Positions 43,910 to 50,022 of a stretch of 64,000 nt of DNA are shown here, one piece after another. Made by a program: the position numbers and the translations under genes. The notes below the pieces were generated by a model that saw only the letters and a program-made list of their open reading frames with translations, searched no databases and was not told the DNA's origin. This stretch comes from Flavobacterium fluvii (GTDB lineage Bacteria > Bacteroidota > Bacteroidia > Flavobacteriales > Flavobacteriaceae). Each line of letters begins with the position of its first letter. Position 1 is the first letter of the stretch. The stretch spans positions 1,240,001 through 1,304,000 of the forward strand of contig NZ_FQWB01000001.1 in NCBI RefSeq assembly GCF_900129545.1, given 5' to 3'.

Positions 43910-43969
43910 CAAAATAAACCGCTTATAAATTGATTTAAAATAAGTTACAACTCGTTTTTATGATTTAAT

Positions 43970-44027
43970 ATTTTATGAAAACAAAAATATTTTCTTTAGC
44001 CCTGATGGAAGGGAAAATCTCCCGATT
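43970..44027 (+). repeat. 58-bp direct repeat, left copy (island border)
   Basis: Begins ATTTTATGAAAAC and contains CTTTAGCCCTGATGGAAGGG. It matches 48140-48197 in the same orientation with two mismatches. The rest of the gap from 43823 to 44293 holds a GTCC-TTC-GGAC hairpin and a CACCCC-rich intergenic sequence near 44100-44145, and no gene. Confidence 0.85.
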
Positions 44028-44293
44028 TAGAAAAGCCGAATAGGTTTGATGTAATTCGTGATCCGAGAGTTAGCATTGACTTTTTTGTTAAAAACATTAT
44101 ATGAACCACCCCGTCCTTCGGACACCCCTCCAAAGGATGGGAAGTGTAGTCGTTGAAATTGTTATTTTTTGACCAAATCTATTGATTTTCAGAAGTTAAT
44201 GATTTGTTTTTTTTAAACAAAACTGCTGTTTTATTTTTTTATGATGTGAAAAAATGTAATTTTATACTTATTAATATAAACCAAAACAATTTT

Positions 44294-44767
44294 ATGAGTA
44301 CACAAAACCAATTGAGTATCAGTATTCCCGATGAAACTATCGCCGCTGTGCTAACGAATTTGCAGGAATGCAAAAATTTGCTTGAGCCTTACTTACGGGC
44401 CTTAACTCCTGATGAACGTCATTCAATCCTTAAAATGGGTGACAAAAGCGTGGCTACGGTGATAAAAACCAGAGAGTATGTGGTGACTAATCCGCAATTT
44501 GTTCCGAGCTATATGAATGCTGTGGAATTTGTCGCCGATGCTACCGTGGTGAGCCAGCTTACGCCAATTACCAATCTTGCCACACAATTGTCCCGCAATG
44601 TCGAGGATACCATGATGTTGGCAGGAGGTGAGGCTTTTCAGGAAGCATTACTGTATTACGGACAGATAAAAGAAGCCGCTTCTAAAGGGGTTCCTTCGGC
44701 AGGCCCTATTTATGACGACTTGAAACAGCGATTCGCCAAAAAACCAAGACAAGAACCGACAACTTAG
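44294..44767 (+). CDS. Conserved-looking hypothetical cytosolic protein
   Basis: 157 residues from the ATG at 44294. The frame opens 30 codons earlier, but that stretch is Phe/Asn-rich and out of keeping, and an A-rich leader precedes the chosen ATG. The sequence is helical and acidic-neutral (ISIPDETIAAVLTNLQECKN, LRALTPDERHSILKMGDKS, LATQLSRNVEDTMMLAGGEA), with no signal peptide, membrane segment or known catalytic motif. I do not recognise the family. It is placed between the left direct repeat and the tandem repeat, and its G+C and codon use look closer to core genes than the cassette genes do. Confidence 0.8.
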   Translation: MSTQNQLSISIPDETIAAVLTNLQECKNLLEPYLRALTPDERHSILKMGDKSVATVIKTREYVVTNPQFVPSYMNAVEFVADATVVSQLTPITNLATQLSRNVEDTMMLAGGEAFQEALLYYGQIKEAASKGVPSAGPIYDDLKQRFAKKPRQEPTT

Positions 44768-44789
44768 TTAGTTATTTTTTTTTGAATTC

Positions 44790-44814
44790 AAGCCTCCCTA
44801 GGGAGGCTTTTATT
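44790..44814 (+). terminator. Terminator after the gene at 44294
   Basis: A perfect 20-base palindrome (AAGCCTCC, CTAG centre, GGAGGCTT) followed by T-rich sequence. Confidence 0.75.
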
Positions 44815-44857
44815 ATGGAGCTAATCTGTTTGAGTTTACACAAAATAAAGCTAAATC

Positions 44858-45046
44858 TCTCGATATACTCTCGGAGAGTTTCCATATACACTCCAAACAT
44901 CTCGAGATGCTTTCAGAGGGTTTCCATATACACTCTGAGTATCTACATAAACACTCTGAGCATCTCGATATACTTTCAGAGAGTCTCGATATACACTTTG
45001 AGTATCTCGATATACTCTCGGAGAGTCTCCATATACACTCCAAACT
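44858..45046 (+). repeat. Nine exact-length 21-bp tandem repeats
   Basis: Nine consecutive units, each 21 bases, with no gaps; typical unit TCTCGATATACTCTCGGAGA then G, or TCTCCATATACACTCCAAAC. The units differ by substitutions only. A tenth degenerate unit may follow (45047-45067). Since 21 is a multiple of three and the unit lacks stops, several frames stay open: one plus frame gives a heptad-like DILSESL/HIHSEYL pattern from 44802 to 45113, another gives SIYTLSI/SIYSRRV. Neither has a convincing start, so I do not call a gene. Confidence 0.9.
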
Positions 45047-45180
45047 CCTTCATTTGATTTCTGAATCCGAGCGAATAAACCACCGAAATATACACGCGCT
45101 TAAGTACTAAAAGTTTGCAACAACTTAAAAGTTATTTTTATGATTTGTAAGAAAAAATCAATATATTTGAAATTAAATAT

Positions 45181-45243
45181 TGTGTGACGTTTGTCACACA
45201 TATCTACCCGAAATTGGGTGGCTTTGTGTGATTTTGTCACACA
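45181..45243. promoter_or_regulatory. 63-bp nested palindrome upstream of the cassette array
   Basis: TGTGTGACGTTTGTCACACA (45181-45200) is a perfect inverted repeat with a 4-base loop. TGTGTGATTTTGTCACACA (45225-45243) is a near copy. Between them CCCGAAATTGGG is the centre of an overall imperfect palindrome. The first copy contains TGTGA-N6-TCACA, the enterobacterial CRP pattern. It ends 9 bases before the first cassette border, so it may be an integration-site or promoter element. Confidence 0.6.
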
Positions 45244-45303
45244 TATAAACGAGTTACAGGAAAGTTTAAAACGAAAGCATAACAAAAAACATCTTCATTT
45301 AAA

Positions 45304-45756
45304 ATGCCTGAATATTATCCGAAAATATCTGAAAGACGAACTGACGAATTAATTGAAATTGCAAACTCGTCAACTAGAGTTTGGCAACTAGACGCAATTA
45401 ATCAAGCCAAATCTGAATTAAAAAAGAGGAATATTTCAGAAAAACAACAAGATGATTATTTTGAAAAAATATTCGAAGAAATTGATATTGAGAATGAAAA
45501 TATAGAACGCAAAAGAAAGTCAAACGAACTTGAAAAGTATAATGTTTTTGAAATGATTTTTATTGTTGCTGTTTCTCCTTTTATACTCATGCGACAATGG
45601 AGAGTTCTTTACGAATTAAAACTAGAAAATTATACTTTGAAATTTAAACAAAGAATAGTCTTGTTGATAATAGGAATGATTATTTGGTTTGGATATTTTT
45701 ATTATGAATTTGACAAATGGCAAAAGGCTGAATTTAATAAAGAATCAAGGTATTAA
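45304..45756 (+). CDS. Cassette 1: hypothetical small membrane protein
   Basis: 150 residues. A polar N-terminal part (about 1-78: YYPKISERRTDELIEIANSS, KSELKKRNISEKQQDDYFEK; helical, charged) is followed by two hydrophobic segments at about 82-98 (VFEMIFIVAVSPFILM) and 118-136 (RIVLLIIGMIIWFGYFYYEF). Very AT-rich compared with flanking core genes. I recognise no family; a similar charged-plus-two-TM layout occurs in many unrelated orphan proteins. It lies between the core sites at 45253 and 45784, which are complementary to each other, so it forms a complete cassette. Confidence 0.8.
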   Translation: MPEYYPKISERRTDELIEIANSSTRVWQLDAINQAKSELKKRNISEKQQDDYFEKIFEEIDIENENIERKRKSNELEKYNVFEMIFIVAVSPFILMRQWRVLYELKLENYTLKFKQRIVLLIIGMIIWFGYFYYEFDKWQKAEFNKESRY

Positions 45757-45783
45757 TTAATCAAATCTGACAAGAAAACCTTC

Positions 45784-45916
45784 CTGTAACAGCTACTACA
45801 ACGGATTTGGGCAATTGGCTTAATGGAAAAATGGTTTTGTATTTGGGATGATTTGGCAAATCCGAAGAATGGGCTTAATTTAGTCCCAAACCCGCTGTAA
45901 TACCAGAACGTTAGCA
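45784..45916 (+). repeat. attC-like site 1 (133 bp)
   Basis: From CTGTAAC (R'') to GTTAGCA (R'). Inside are GCTACTACAACGGATTTGGG and, near the other end, CCCAAACCCGCTGTAATACC, which pair imperfectly, with a 1-base gap on one side and 5 on the other between core and stem boxes. An inner GATTTGGCAAATC palindrome follows. Confidence 0.8.
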
Positions 45917-45923
45917 ACAATAT

Positions 45924-46721
45924 ATGACAAACGAAGAAAAAACAACTGATAGATATAAATTAAGTCAGTTTTACAAAGGCAAAGATTTTGAAACTAACTA
46001 TGTCAAACTTCAACAATTTGATAATGCAAAAATAAATAGTGAAAATATTCATATTCAAAGTTTATCATTTTTATATAACACATTAAAATCAAAAGATAAA
46101 GTCGAAATTAATTCGAAATGGACAAATCTTTTTCCGAAACTTGACAAAGTTAAAAGATTAAAAATTACGTTTGGTATTAATCAAGATATGTTTAATATCA
46201 TATGTGAAATACCAAATTTGGAAGAATTAATTATAGATACATCGAAAGTAATAGACCTAACCCAACTTGAAAATATAAAGAACTTAAATAGATTAGAAAT
46301 CGATAGTTTCACTAAACTAACCAATATATCTATACTTGAAAAAATCAAATTAAAACAACTTAGAATTGAGAATTGTTTTAAAATTGAAAATTATGAAATA
46401 GTTGAAAAAATAGAAAGTTTAATCGGCCTTTCTTTGAATGGTTACTGTTGGGGGCCAAAAAATCTAAAAATAAAGACAATCGAACAATTTGTTAAACTCA
46501 AAAACCTAAAGCATTTAGATTTAAGTACAACATCATTAGAAGATAAAAACTCAATATTTAAAATTCTTGAAATTGAGAGTTTGGAAAGGTTTGATATTAC
46601 AGGAAGTTTTAAACCTGAAATTGTAGAAGAAATAAAACGAAAACATTCAAATTTAGTAGCTGGATTTTTCACAGACTGGGATTTTAAAAATAAAAAAATG
46701 TTTGACGGAAAATCTTGGTAA
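45924..46721 (+). CDS. Cassette 2: leucine-rich-repeat-like hypothetical protein
   Basis: 265 residues, soluble, without signal peptide. Irregular leucine-rich repeats run from about residue 70 to 240: VKRLKITFGI, IPNLEELIIDTSKVIDLTQL, ENIKNLNRLEIDSFTKLTNI, KLKQLRIENCFKIENYEIVE, LKNLKHLDLSTTSLEDKNSI, IESLERFDITGSF. Such a fold normally binds proteins, so a role as an interaction or immunity partner is possible but not shown. Unrelated in sequence to the large LRR protein at 2382. Strongly Ile/Lys/Asn-rich. Begins 8 bases after the end of the R' core. Confidence 0.8.
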   Translation: MTNEEKTTDRYKLSQFYKGKDFETNYVKLQQFDNAKINSENIHIQSLSFLYNTLKSKDKVEINSKWTNLFPKLDKVKRLKITFGINQDMFNIICEIPNLEELIIDTSKVIDLTQLENIKNLNRLEIDSFTKLTNISILEKIKLKQLRIENCFKIENYEIVEKIESLIGLSLNGYCWGPKNLKIKTIEQFVKLKNLKHLDLSTTSLEDKNSIFKILEIESLERFDITGSFKPEIVEEIKRKHSNLVAGFFTDWDFKNKKMFDGKSW

Positions 46722-46736
46722 ATATATATATACTGT

Positions 46737-46869
46737 TGCTAACAGCCACTACAACGGATTTGGGCATTTGGCTTAATGAAAAAATGGTTTTGTATTTGGA
46801 ATGATTTGGCAAATCCGAAAATAGGGCTTAATTTAGTCCCAAACCCGCTGTAGTGCCAGAACGTTGGCG
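46737..46869 (+). repeat. attC-like site 2 (133 bp)
   Basis: From TGCTAAC (R'') to GTTGGCG (R'). Stem boxes GCCACTACAACGGATTTGGG and CCCAAACCCGCTGTAGTGCC are nearly complementary. Same total length as sites 1 and 3. Confidence 0.8.
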
Positions 46870-46899
46870 GCTATTGGACAACCAAACGAAAATAATTAA

Positions 46900-47448
46900 A
46901 TGAAGAGATTAGTTATTACTATGTCAATTTTTATCTTTTTTTCCTGCAATAAAGAAACTAAAGATTTAACACCAAACTTCAAAGACTTTATTTATGTAAA
47001 CTTGAATTTAAAAGAAACTAATTCTTTAAAATTTAGCGGAAATGATACTTTGTATTTACAAAAAAGATTTTCCAAAAAACCTGATGAATATTATATTGCA
47101 ATTCTAAATAAACAAGTTAAAGATTCTCTAATAAAAAGAATTAATAAACTAAATTTTGAAAAATACAAACCTAATTACATAGCACAAAATATTGATGATG
47201 AAAATTCACAAGTTTTGATAATATGCAGAAATAAAAAACCTGAATTCATTTCTATTAACGAAAAAATTGGACCTTCAGAAATTAGATCATTTCGTAATTG
47301 GTTTGAAAAATTTGAAAACGAATTAAAATTTATCAAAACAAAAGAATATATACACTTTTGGAATAACAAAAATATTGTTCCAGCACCACCACCGCCAAAT
47401 CCAACACCAATATTAAAGAATATTATATATAATAAGAACAGCCACTAA
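46900..47448 (+). CDS. Cassette 3: hypothetical lipoprotein
   Basis: 182 residues. A lipoprotein signal ends in FIFFSC (Cys about 16). The mature part is Lys/Asn-rich with no recognised domain (ISKKPDEYYIAILNKQ-like strand/helix alternation; EKIGPSEIRSFRNWFEKFEN near residue 135). It ends with a Pro-rich tail, APPPPNPTPILKN, then NKNSH. The stop codon TAA is part of the R'' core CACTAAC of the following attC-like site, so the coding region runs into the recombination site. Function unknown. Confidence 0.78.
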   Translation: MKRLVITMSIFIFFSCNKETKDLTPNFKDFIYVNLNLKETNSLKFSGNDTLYLQKRFSKKPDEYYIAILNKQVKDSLIKRINKLNFEKYKPNYIAQNIDDENSQVLIICRNKKPEFISINEKIGPSEIRSFRNWFEKFENELKFIKTKEYIHFWNNKNIVPAPPPPNPTPILKNIIYNKNSH

Positions 47449-47575
47449 CAGCCACTACTACGGATTTGGGCATTTGGCTTAATGGAAAAATAGTTTTGTA
47501 TTTGGAATGATTTGGCAAATCCGAAAATAGGGCTTAATTTAGTTCCAAACCCGCTGTAGTGCCAAGACGTTATGG
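47443..47575 (+). repeat. attC-like site 3 (133 bp)
   Basis: From CACTAAC (R'', containing the cassette 3 stop codon) to GTTATGG (R'). Differs from site 2 at only a handful of positions over the shared inner part (between the core boxes). Confidence 0.8.
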
Positions 47576-47635
47576 GCAAGCTTAGCGACACATCTATGTT
47601 TTAAAATCGACAATATTCTAATTTATCATAACTGA

Positions 47636-48073
47636 ATGCAGACATTTAAAACCCCTCTCTTAATACCGTTGATTGTCAGTGGGACGTTTCTTATCTCTTG
47701 TTTCGTTCCAGTACTGCAAATAATAATATTGACTTTTGACGGAGGACTTTTATCCTATTTTAACAAAATCATCTTTAATGACAATTATTCAAAATTTGGC
47801 ACAACAAACTGGATTGTCAATTTTAGCCTCTCTATTTTATTGTTAGTTTTTTTATTAAGGGCAAAGACCAGATTGACACAAATATTATTTTCAATACTAT
47901 CAATTATCTTTCTATTTAGTCTCATAGCTTTTATTTTTATGGCCGACGACAAAACCGCTGACCCAGTTGACCCAGAACCATACTTTTTATATTTCGTCAT
48001 CGAATCATTAATAAGCGGAATTATACTTTGTGCAATTGTGAAAATTAAAAATAAGCTACAGCGAGTGATATAA
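47636..48073 (+). CDS. Cassette 4: hypothetical four-helix membrane protein
   Basis: 145 residues, four predicted membrane helices at about 6-30 (PLLIPLIVSGTFLISC), 58-76 (WIVNFSLSILLLVFLL), 81-103 (TQILFSILSIIFLFSLIAFI) and 113-138 (FLYFVIESLISGIILCAIV), with a short acidic loop DDKTADPVDPEPY before the last. No family recognised. Lies in the unit that starts GTTATGGGCAAGC and ends GCCTGCCCATAAC. Stop codon is 9 bases before the R'' core. Confidence 0.78.
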   Translation: MQTFKTPLLIPLIVSGTFLISCFVPVLQIIILTFDGGLLSYFNKIIFNDNYSKFGTTNWIVNFSLSILLLVFLLRAKTRLTQILFSILSIIFLFSLIAFIFMADDKTADPVDPEPYFLYFVIESLISGIILCAIVKIKNKLQRVI

Positions 48074-48082
48074 TAAGCCTGC

Positions 48083-48143
48083 CCATAACAGCCACTACAA
48101 CGGATTTGGGCAATTGGCTTAATGGAAAGTTGGTTTTGTATTT
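48083..48143 (+). repeat. attC-like site 4, truncated
   Basis: Starts CCCATAAC, then AGCCACTACAACGGATTTGG as in the other sites, but stops matching after about 60 bases (TTGTATTT) where the 58-bp direct repeat begins. The right half and the R' core are missing. Confidence 0.75.
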
Positions 48144-48197
48144 TATGGAAACCAAAATATTTTCTTTAGCCCTGATGGAAGGGAAAATCTCCCGATT
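48140..48197 (+). repeat. 58-bp direct repeat, right copy (island border)
   Basis: Matches 43970-44027 in the same orientation except two substitutions. Its first bases ATTT overlap the broken end of attC-like site 4. Confidence 0.85.
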
Positions 48198-48239
48198 CGT
48201 AAAAACAAGGCTTTTTGCCGTAGTTTTTCTGAATCGGGA
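48190..48239 (+). other. Long hairpin upstream of fabD
   Basis: CCCGATTC (48191-48198) pairs with GAATCGGG (48231-48238). The stem continues through a GTAAAAAC/GTTTTT region and closes with AAGGC-TTTTT-GCC. There is no T run after it, so it is not a classic terminator. Confidence 0.6.
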
Positions 48240-48302
48240 ATTGGAATGACAGCAGGACGACTGTTCTTGATAGCAAAAAATTGCTGCTCCTAAAAAAAAT
48301 AG

Positions 48303-48310
48303 TATTTTTG
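48303..48310 (+). promoter_or_regulatory. -7 promoter box of fabD
   Basis: TATTTTTG, 46 bases before the ATG of fabD. Confidence 0.5.
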
Positions 48311-48356
48311 CATCCCGATTTAATCTTTAAATCATTCAATCTTTAAATTAAAAAAT

Positions 48357-49229
48357 ATGAAGGCATACGTATTTCCAGGTCAGGGCGCACAATTCACGGG
48401 AATGGGCAAAGACTTATATGAGAATTCAGAATTGGCAAAATCACTTTTCGAAAAAGCGAATGAAATATTGGGTTTCCGCATCACGGATATCATGTTTGAA
48501 GGCACGGCCGAAGAATTGAAAGAAACCAAAGTTACGCAACCAGCTGTTTTCTTGCACTCGGTTATTTTGGCTAAAACCTTGGAAGATTTCAAACCGGAAA
48601 TGGTGGCAGGACACTCTTTGGGTGAATTCTCCGCATTGGTTGCCAATGGTGCTTTGTCATTTGAAGACGGATTGAAATTGGTTTCGCAACGGGCGCTGGC
48701 AATGCAAAAAGCCTGTGAAATTAAACCTTCCACAATGGCGGCAGTTTTGGGATTAGCCGACAATATCGTTGAAGAAGTTTGTGCTTCGATTGACGGAATC
48801 GTGGTTGCAGCTAATTATAACTGTCCTGGTCAATTGGTGATTTCAGGCGAAACTACAGCTGTGGAAAAAGCCTGCGAAGCGATGAAAGCAGCGGGAGCAA
48901 AACGTGCTTTATTGTTGCCTGTTGGAGGAGCATTTCATTCGCCAATGATGGAGCCGGCAAGAGAGGAATTGGCCGCAGCTATTGAAGCGACTACATTTTC
49001 GACGCCTATTTGTCCAGTGTATCAAAACGTGACGGCATCTGCCGTTTCTGATGCTGACGAAATCAAGAAAAACTTGATTATACAATTGACAGCTCCTGTA
49101 AAATGGACGCAATCGGTACAACAAATGATTGCTGATGGAGCCACTTTGTTCACTGAAGTAGGTCCTGGAAAAGTATTGGCAGGATTGATTGGAAAAATTG
49201 ACAAAGAAGCTGCGACGGCGAATGCTTAA
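48357..49229 (+). CDS. fabD: Malonyl-CoA:acyl carrier protein transacylase
   Basis: Moves the malonyl group from CoA to ACP for fatty acid synthesis. 290 residues, the normal length. Seen: AYVFPGQGAQFTGMGKDLYE (about 3-22), the nucleophile in AGHSLGEFSALVANGA (Ser about 89), QRALAMQKACE (substrate Arg), NYNCPGQLVISG and GGAFHSPMM (His about 198). Not next to other fab genes here. First core gene after the cassette island; a terminator follows. Confidence 0.95.
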   Translation: MKAYVFPGQGAQFTGMGKDLYENSELAKSLFEKANEILGFRITDIMFEGTAEELKETKVTQPAVFLHSVILAKTLEDFKPEMVAGHSLGEFSALVANGALSFEDGLKLVSQRALAMQKACEIKPSTMAAVLGLADNIVEEVCASIDGIVVAANYNCPGQLVISGETTAVEKACEAMKAAGAKRALLLPVGGAFHSPMMEPAREELAAAIEATTFSTPICPVYQNVTASAVSDADEIKKNLIIQLTAPVKWTQSVQQMIADGATLFTEVGPGKVLAGLIGKIDKEAATANA

Positions 49230-49280
49230 AATTCAGATTGCAGAATTAAGAATTTAGATTGCAGTTATTGTAATAACAGA

Positions 49281-49316
49281 ATCCTCATAAACTTTATGTT
49301 TGTGGGGATTTTTATT
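49281..49316 (+). terminator. Terminator after fabD
   Basis: ATCCTCATAAAC (49281-49292) pairs with GTTTGTGGGGAT (49298-49309, two G-T pairs), followed by T. It overlaps the end of the converging pepE gene by a few bases. Confidence 0.75.
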
Positions 49317-50022
49317 TTAAATAACTCAAGTCTGTTCCGCTTTCAATTTCCACAGGAGTTTGATTTGGCATAAAAAGGCGAGCCTGCAGTGTGCCTTTCA
49401 AAGTTGTTTGGTCTCCTTTTACCTCCAGCCAACTACCTTCTCTTAATCCTAAAACGGGAACATTGTTGAAAGCGTGAAACTCGGTTATTCTGGCTTCACG
49501 GGTTTCTCCCATATGTGTTGATGTCGTGTCGGGATCAAGATAATGTGGATTCAAATTGAAGGGAACCAATCCCAAGGTAATAAAACTGGGTGGATAAATG
49601 ATGGGCATGTCATTCGTGGTTTGCATCGTCAGTCCACAAATGTTGCTGCCGGCACTTGTTCCCAAATAAGGAGTTCCTCTTTTGACCGTTTCGGCAAGGA
49701 TGGTCATAATCTTGTTTTTGTACAATTGGGATACCAATAAAAAGGTGTTGCCGCCACCGGTAAAAATTCCTTCCGCATTGGAAACGGCTGTCGAGAAATC
49801 TTCGAATTCGTGAATTCCTTTTACTTTTATATTTATTTTGGCGAAAGCCGTTGCGACTTTTGCCGTGTATTCTTCGTGTGAAATTCCGCCAGGTCTGGCA
49901 AAGGGTATAAATAATATCTTTTTGCAATGCTTGAAATGAAGGCGCAATTCGGGCAATAAATATTCTAGATAATCACCTCCGTGAAGCGTGGAAGTGCTGG
50001 CAATAATTATATTTTTATTCAT
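49312..50022 (-). CDS. pepE: Dipeptidase E (peptidase S51, aspartyl dipeptidase)
   Basis: Cytosolic serine peptidase that hydrolyses dipeptides with an N-terminal Asp. 236 residues. Seen: STSTLHGGDYLEYL (1-20 region), LFIPFARPGG, EGIFTGGGNTFLLVSQLY (about 84-101), the nucleophile in LGTSAGSNICG (Ser about 121) and the His-bearing NPHYLDPD and STHMGETREARI regions. No signal peptide. Divergent from the paralogue family at 50182. Confidence 0.92.
   Translation of the reverse strand: MNKNIIIASTSTLHGGDYLEYLLPELRLHFKHCKKILFIPFARPGGISHEEYTAKVATAFAKINIKVKGIHEFEDFSTAVSNAEGIFTGGGNTFLLVSQLYKNKIMTILAETVKRGTPYLGTSAGSNICGLTMQTTNDMPIIYPPSFITLGLVPFNLNPHYLDPDTTSTHMGETREARITEFHAFNNVPVLGLREGSWLEVKGDQTTLKGTLQARLFMPNQTPVEIESGTDLSYLK

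Follow-up and report, generated by a model that had tools for sequence, protein, structure and literature searches.

How did four small genes, all read from one strand and separated by near-identical imperfect palindromes, come to stand in a row in the genome of Flavobacterium fluvii? They occupy positions 45253 to 48143 of the stretch of DNA analysed here (64,000 nucleotides; contig NZ_FQWB01000001.1, positions 1,240,001 to 1,304,000; hereafter "the window"), and an earlier note had read them as an integron-like array of gene cassettes served by a recombinase elsewhere in the genome. From sequence comparison we conclude, with a probability of about 0.85, that the locus is an integron-like platform comprising an attI-like site, four cassettes and three intact attC-like sites, and that a tyrosine recombinase of the Xer/IntI type, of whose gene the last 23 codons are left beside attI, likely added the cassettes singly at that site.

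Results

A probable cassette platform without its enzyme

The repeat array of the window is real and looks like an integron-type cassette array. As the earlier note described, four genes on the + strand are split by three full 133-bp repeats and a cut one. The left edge given in that note, 45253, is the G of the first GTT. Cassette 1 (45253..45909) consists of an open reading frame (ORF; 45304-45756, 150 aa) and attC-like site 1 (45784..45916); cassette 2 (45910..46862) has an ORF at 45924-46721 (265 aa, leucine-rich-repeat-like), with attC-like site 2 at 46737..46869; cassette 3 (46863..47568) has an ORF at 46900-47448 (182 aa; weak DUF6438 match under the cut-off), with attC-like site 3 at 47443..47575; and cassette 4 (47569..48143) has an ORF at 47636-48073 (145 aa) and an attC-like site that is cut at 48143. 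All of these features lie on the + strand. In units 1, 2 and 4 the 15 bases counted from GTT are complementary, at every position but the 11th, to the 15 bases leading to AAC of the same unit; the pairing of units 1 and 4 was read by eye, and that of unit 2 was also scored by computation. The three full sites are among the 14 sites of this genome from which we built a model, R1; attC identity rests on R1 and not on a published model. Further copies of the repeat, which the earlier note had suggested looking for, are abundant: BLAST gives 45 matches in the genome at E <= 10 and 37 at E <= 1e-3, mostly clustered on contigs C16, C10, C17, C19, C22, C11 and C13, the last being that of the window.

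Directly upstream of 45253 lies an attI-like site (45181..45252, + strand) with inverted arms around ACCC..GGGT, which ends at the crossover GTT; it falls within a match (45153-45256) to our attI model, R2, of which the window is itself a training row. Upstream of this site, 72 bases (45079-45150, + strand) encode TTEIYTRLSTKSLQQLKSYFYDL and a stop codon, and match residues 325-347 of the tyrosine recombinase found intact in relatives (78% identity, E 8e-7, tblastn of the 1.5 kb upstream of attI). These final 23 codons of an integrase gene end 102 bp before the crossover GTT, and between stop codon and attI arms lies TATATTTG (45162..45169, + strand), a candidate −7 element of a cassette promoter. 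An element like TAnnTTTG, the −7 element consensus, precedes attI in most rows of the attI alignment.

No other part of the recombinase gene was recognised upstream of the remnant, where a degenerate 21-bp tandem repeat (44831..45082, + strand) takes the place of the gene body. At a second platform of this genome, too, a similar tandem repeat (C22:390793-391095) immediately precedes an integrase remnant and attI. A search of the genome (27 contigs, completeness 100) with a profile of the recombinase, A3, found no intact copy, although an assembly gap could hide one; its matches were XerD at 162 bits, XerC at 142 bits and, far lower, two distant integrases of phage type at 44 and 40 bits. The earlier note was thus right that no integrase lies within the array, but the recombinase it expected elsewhere in the genome did not turn up; and its reading of a cassette array without an enzyme stands as regards the array and the movement of units, while the attI-like site and the integrase remnant immediately before 45253 had been overlooked. 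The window holds an integron-like platform without its enzyme. This one genome, we also note, has 12 attI-like sites, and an integrase tail precedes several of them; platforms have apparently multiplied in the absence of the enzyme.

Unit-specific ends and attC-type hairpins

If units are excised as circles, the two ends of each should be complementary to one another. In a set of 81 units taken from this genome and others, 9.65 of 12 scored end positions pair, versus 4.69 ± 0.17 after shuffling (2000 shuffles, maximum 5.26); a larger, alignment-free comparison of 176 distinct end pairs gives 9.42 of 12 versus 4.62 ± 0.11 (2000 shuffles, maximum 5.01). The 176 pairs come from 204 units and 277 sites: the R1 search for unit ends gave 329 matches of which 150 were alignable, and the sites of three alignments and the first list were therefore pooled. 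By position, the paired fraction is 0.72-0.95 at positions 4-10, 0.01 at position 11, 0.74-0.89 at positions 12-15 and 0.20 at position 16. At position 11 the unit start carries A in 176/176 cases, the partner is C in 142, and a pair is formed in one; on the bottom strand this A.C becomes a T.G wobble.

The stem of the site behaves in a corresponding manner. When 105 sites of the genus, 104 of them distinct, are aligned to R1, 96.7% of cells are paired versus 69.6% after shuffling, 19 of the 22 stem pairs have changes on both sides, and the covariation score is 0.645 versus 0.167 ± 0.008 for shuffled and at most 0.114 for slid alignments. The sites are therefore imperfect palindromes in which R''..AAC and GTT..R' are complementary within one cassette, as in integron attC sites, and the R'/R'' logic and hairpins proposed in the earlier note are borne out by end pairing far above shuffles and by covarying stems.

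The strand preference of integron attC sites is seen as well, on predicted energies: folding of the bottom strand, a check that the earlier note had put forward, is predicted to be more stable in 174 of 189 sites re-formed by rejoining unit ends as in a circle (−28.5 vs −24.7 kcal/mol). For sites as they lie in arrays, where the same length reaches a predicted −21.3 kcal/mol, the bottom strand is favoured in 141/195, and in random control segments in 68/200; G.T pairs outnumber A.C pairs by 276 to 28 in the model alignment. Three attC-like sites (L032:3609-3780, L033:12943-13102 and L034:6603-6762) carry a small inserted element of the CTTCGCC...CGGGTGG type in their middle, and three others (L032:5678-5810, L032:6474-6606 and L033:13581-13711) seem by eye to be chimeric, with stem halves from different sequence families, so that their stem should pair poorly.

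These data bear on whether there are cassettes at all. A dispersed palindromic repeat, of the miniature inverted-repeat transposable element (MITE) or repetitive extragenic palindromic (REP) type, inserted several times between genes, would account for near-identical repeats and for the isolated and truncated copies elsewhere in the genome. Such insertion is independent of the sequence of the neighbouring unit, whereas the ends found here are specific to each unit and share a fixed non-pairing position, so that the end-complementarity control contradicts it; an attI heads the array; near-identical units stand beside unrelated neighbours (see below); and the longest ORF lies on the cassette strand in 158 of the 169 units that have an ORF of at least 60 aa. 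We regard this explanation as highly improbable.

Intact relatives of the remnant head arrays in other genomes

The R1 model finds sites at E <= 1e-3 in 222/299 genomes of the genus, the best 11 matches at most being counted per genome. A strong recombinase match (E <= 1e-100) is present in 132/299, and 113 of these 132 have R1 matches; so do 36 of the 48 genomes whose recombinase match falls between E 1e-60 and 1e-100. From 18 genomes of the genus assembled in one or two contigs we took 20 regions around the recombinase gene, blind to sites (further listed genomes, e.g. G566, G608, G634, G664 and G671, were set aside); 19 of these regions carry one or more R1 matches 3' of the gene and on the right strand. 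A second set of 20 regions, from other genera, was made from listed matches to the IntI profile TIGR02249 in one-contig genomes; all 22 R1 matches there, in 13 of the 20 regions (one region, L091, has a weak ORF match only), are again 3' of the gene and on the right strand. Many of these other-genera regions also have direct repeats of 40-400 bp 3' of the recombinase gene. G562 has two array stretches with more than 30 R1 matches in all. Since intact relatives of the remnant head the same kind of array, Flavobacterium, a common group of bacteria, likely has its own version of the integron.

To place the start of the first cassette, we looked beyond the recombinase stop for the GTT that best matches the left arm of the first site. 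This start falls 92-153 bp after the stop in 16 of the 20 genus regions (7-11 of 11 scored positions); for 11 of these the distance from stop to crossover is 101-104 bp. The best GTT match is far away in L156, L171 and L172, and L173 has no usable site. The stretch before the crossover GTT is alike across these genomes and the window, with inverted arms around ACCC..GGGT, and 7 of 9 predicted attI pairs show changes on both sides. R2, made from 18 such rows, matches in 192/299 genus genomes and 12 times in our genome. Among sequences that were not training rows, it finds a site behind the recombinase in L171 and in L172 and, in another family, behind the recombinase on two Chryseobacterium plasmids that had no part in the model: NZ_CP041688.1 of Chryseobacterium sp. 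SNU WT5 (E 6e-6), where three R1 matches follow the attI, and NZ_CP094530.1 of C. oryzae (E 3e-5), where the one R1 match is at chance level (E 0.96) and on the other strand. By position and by sequence, then, there is an attI beside an integrase gene with cassettes inserted at it, as in an integron; in the window the gene is a remnant. On NZ_CP041688.1, a stretch of about 176 bp that starts at the GTT right after attI recurs four times, 99-100% identical, within L231 10149-17869 and is perhaps a cassette without an ORF. The genes of this array include an IS110 transposase and a group II intron reverse transcriptase on the other strand, which recall known attC parasites.

Within our genome, 9 of the 13 stretches examined for their attC matches (the window included) have an upstream attI on the same strand, and among four further attI matches the one on C8 has a downstream attC. 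By BLAST, seven attI copies are found at E <= 1e-13, and a recombinase tail is recognisable before four of them. These counts help to judge whether the host XerC and XerD, both present in this genome, move the cassettes, as they do for Xer-exploiting elements, which have dif-like sites at their ends, so that a linked recombinase would not be needed. That 73 of the 119 genus genomes without the recombinase family, ours included, have sites would fit such a scheme; the recombinase remnants before attI and the arrays that begin at near-fixed spacing beside a dedicated recombinase do not, and on array layout and remnants, no dif-like site having been sought, we give the Xer explanation a low probability.

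A recombinase that lacks the IntI-specific segment

The 13 recombinases aligned in A3 are 305-394 aa long, have an N-terminal extension in 12/13, and have in no case an insert at the IntI-specific segment; the recombinase profile has 16 residues in place of the 59 of IntI4. The spacing between the K..R motif and HxLRH is 58-59 in all 31 measurable recombinases (of 41), compared with 100 in 6/6 IntI, 64 in XerC and 66 in XerD; a looser version of the motif gave one stray spacing, 227. On sequence comparison, then, about 41 residues of IntI have no counterpart in the recombinase, those in the region of the IntI-specific segment among them. In four scanned recombinases the best family is NF040815 (214-231 bits against a cut-off of 220, three of the four above it) and TIGR02249 comes second (206-219 bits, under its cut-off of 265). 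In a tree with two outgroup rows and no archaeal XerA, the recombinases and IntI are separate from host XerC/XerD (98/97), and 32% of 200 bootstrap trees group the recombinases into a single clade next to IntI, which may instead lie among them. A structure model (mean pLDDT 71.7, pTM 0.42), which supports no more than the class, retrieves XerA first and IntI4 sixth in Foldseek. The National Center for Biotechnology Information (NCBI) names the protein "site-specific tyrosine recombinase/integron integrase", which is a family name and not a test; the recombinase of G503, another genome of this genus, shares about 95% identity with proteins from named species of Flavobacterium.

The recombinase gene is oriented toward attI. 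L173 (G418) is a case apart: its recombinase belongs to a divergent clade, and its two weak sites stand 5' of the gene and face the other way, a layout like that of a canonical integron. A conserved partner gene after the recombinase is not supported by L077 and L078, where the two 201-aa ORFs that come next are unrelated.

Could the array have been built by a true IntI that has since been lost, with the relatives' recombinase a bystander? The R'/R'' logic, the bottom-strand bias and the position of attI are as in integrons, and IntI is not rare in the phylum, being over the cut-off in 86/316 Bacteroidota genomes. But a canonical IntI was sought in our genome and in 397 genomes of the family, and in none is TIGR02249 matched over its cut-off (weaker matches at E <= 1e-30 occur in 166/397, and many of those listed lie a few hundred bases from a contig end); moreover, it is the other recombinase that heads arrays, and its own remnant stands at the attI of the window. 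We therefore find a lost IntI quite unlikely. The system is integron-like in anatomy, site logic and turnover of cassettes; it is not a canonical IntI integron, because the defining feature of the integrase, an IntI-family enzyme with the additional segment, was tested for and not found.

Cassettes appear to change as units and carry diverse cargo

Pairwise comparison gives 79 unit pairs with an identity of 70% or more across 85% or more of the longer unit. For the 22 pairs that reach at least 90%, agreement over the opening 60 bases is 0.97, but over the opening 60 bases of the units that follow it is 0.37, against a background of 0.36; the following unit is unrelated in 20 pairs and the same in two, and 4/22 pairs are between species. 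As in integrons, cassettes thus appear to be exchanged as units, and the claim that the units move or moved as cassettes is supported by these near-identical units beside unrelated neighbours. Comparison with related genomes, named in the earlier note as what might overturn it, did not do so: the site type is joined to many different genes in the genus. Comparing 13 attI places of our genome with 13 in four relatives, a small test, gave one shared platform (C10a and G432c), in which the upstream gene matches and ends less than 400 bp from attI in both, and the cassettes differ.

An 891-bp and a 701-bp unit each occur, 100% identical, at two places of one array; and intact recombinase genes are 77-96% alike among at least 120 public proteins. 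Both observations speak against a fossil, that is, a system once present in the genus and now inactive everywhere, whose exchanges are old. For the fossil one can cite the lost integrase of the window's platform and several stray sites that are truncated; we consider it improbable, if the least so of the alternatives weighed here.

The 158 ORFs on the cassette strand fall into 149 groups at E 1e-8. A Pfam scan of 100 of these proteins together with those of the window gave 76 families at E <= 1e-4, and among the 25 of these that were listed four match two or three members and the rest one. None of the four cassette proteins of the window (150, 265, 182 and 145 aa) has a Pfam family above the cut-off; that of cassette 2 has a 50% identical relative in an array of another genus. 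The cargo in alignment A9 includes trypsin-like peptidases, beta-lactamase-fold proteins, a UvrD/GajB-like helicase, Fic and PD-(D/E)XK proteins, and cassette-position ORFs at L270 (G432) and L042 resemble, by eye, IS200/REP-type transposases.

The locus of the block

The block sits between a GH130 gene and fabD and is bounded by a direct repeat of about 59 bp, with its left copy at 43969..44027 and its right copy, at the start of which the fourth attC is cut, at 48139..48197 (both + strand; 62/67 identical over a slightly wider stretch). Inside it, upstream of the integrase remnant, is a 187-aa ORF (44204..44767, + strand) with no family above the cut-off. At the fabD locus of 17 relatives, none of the 17 has an R1 match (E <= 0.01) or a BLAST attI in the 3-10 kb examined (two stretches under 5 kb). 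GH130 adjoins fabD in only one of them, G426, which has a single copy of the roughly 59-bp stretch there. G426 thus looks like an empty site and suggests insertion in our genome; loss in G426 is also compatible. A Flavo-1 RNA (RF01705; window 48164-48263; 45.1 bits against a gathering score of 42) overlaps the right copy, and a 35-bp part of it is repeated at 44000-44034; an Rfam scan of 44000-49500 gave nothing else at gathering score. The repeat of our array has no DNA match at E <= 1e-3 in plasmid and phage collections.

Discussion

Several observations weigh against reading the locus as an integron-like platform built by this recombinase. Recombination is inferred here from the comparison of sequences, and the 22 near-identical unit pairs are not independent. 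The sites were found with a model from our own genome, and the 105-site stem alignment was fitted to the R1 structure and leans toward it. In the window, the claim that every unit has its own complementary ends holds for units 1, 2 and 4, bar position 11, and is weak for unit 3, whose ends match at 7 of 12 scored positions. The association of recombinase and sites is real but loose (Fisher p 1.3e-5): 19 of the 132 genomes with a strong recombinase have no R1 match, and 73 of the 119 without a recombinase at E <= 1e-60 still have R1 matches, so that many genomes, like ours, have sites without a detected enzyme. Among the genus regions, the two weak sites of L173 lie on the wrong side and strand, three additional sites stand upstream in L162, and L156 and L172 have one distant site each. 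In our genome, 4 of the 13 attC stretches (L032, L035, L036 and L041) are without an attI match, and three attI matches (L272, L274 and L275) are without attC in the stretch examined. Finally, host XerD, too, passes the NF040815 cut-off.

We propose the following sequence of events. Excision would release the cassette as a circle and bring its two ends together again as a single long hairpin, whose bottom strand would be the substrate of the recombinase; recombination with attI at GTT would place the cassette directly downstream of a promoter. In our genome the platform would have lost its integrase, so that its cassettes would be fixed or moved only in trans. At roughly even odds, we further suggest a second class of integron in flavobacteria, in which a Xer/XerA-like recombinase would read a 15-bp arm with a fixed unpaired position in a folded, single-stranded attC. 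Such a class would have been overlooked because its integrase is without the IntI insert; it might show the state before the insert was gained, or a way to do without it; and one enzyme could serve a dozen attI platforms in trans.

The additional segment of IntI is described as required for integron integrase activity, and its gain may, by the same sources, have permitted the use of folded single-stranded sites (PMC2727003, PMC4792948). An attI, strand-biased hairpins and unit turnover under a recombinase that has no such segment make the idea of this requirement directly testable. Surveys keyed on IntI would miss gene capture of this kind in a large and common group, given the share of genus genomes with R1 and R2 matches (222/299 and 192/299).

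Riemerella anatipestifer belongs to the same bacterial order. In one report, a gene with 27 bp before it and 140 bp after it entered the chromosome of this species without homology, the 140 bp being said to fold like attC, and the section describing this names no recombinase (PMC13148043). By analogy, the system described here might offer a candidate mechanism for this homology-free gene uptake. IntegronFinder 2.0 is reported to have found a complete integron in Salinibacter, only In0 having been seen earlier in Bacteroidetes (PMC9024848). The open literature on integrons or attC in Flavobacterium, Flavobacteriaceae, Chryseobacterium and Bacteroidetes/Bacteroidota, covered at the level of titles and abstracts with preprints and subscription journals outside the scope, yielded no description of the system.

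Three known systems invite comparison. With IntI integrons, such as the sedentary chromosomal integron of Vibrio cholerae, the system shares attI, cassettes with attC hairpins, R'/R'' complementarity within the cassette, a bottom-strand bias of folding and mostly unknown cargo on one strand; it differs in an integrase without about 41 IntI residues (motif spacing 58-59 vs 100), in arms of 15 bp with a fixed non-pairing position, where 9-11 consecutive complementary nucleotides are given for most gene cassettes in PMC2727003, and in an integrase gene that points toward attI, an orientation also reported elsewhere for a gene annotated as IntI (PMC3607928). Clusters of attC sites lacking integron-integrases (CALIN), commonly defined by at least two attC within 4 kb and no integrase nearby, are matched by the window in its three intact sites within 1.8 kb and in the absence of an intact family member from the genome, but an attI-like site and an integrase remnant set the window apart from them. 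Xer and archaeal XerA (NF040815) provide the best family match and likewise have no IntI insert; unlike them, the recombinase described here has an N-terminal extension in most aligned members and heads cassette arrays.

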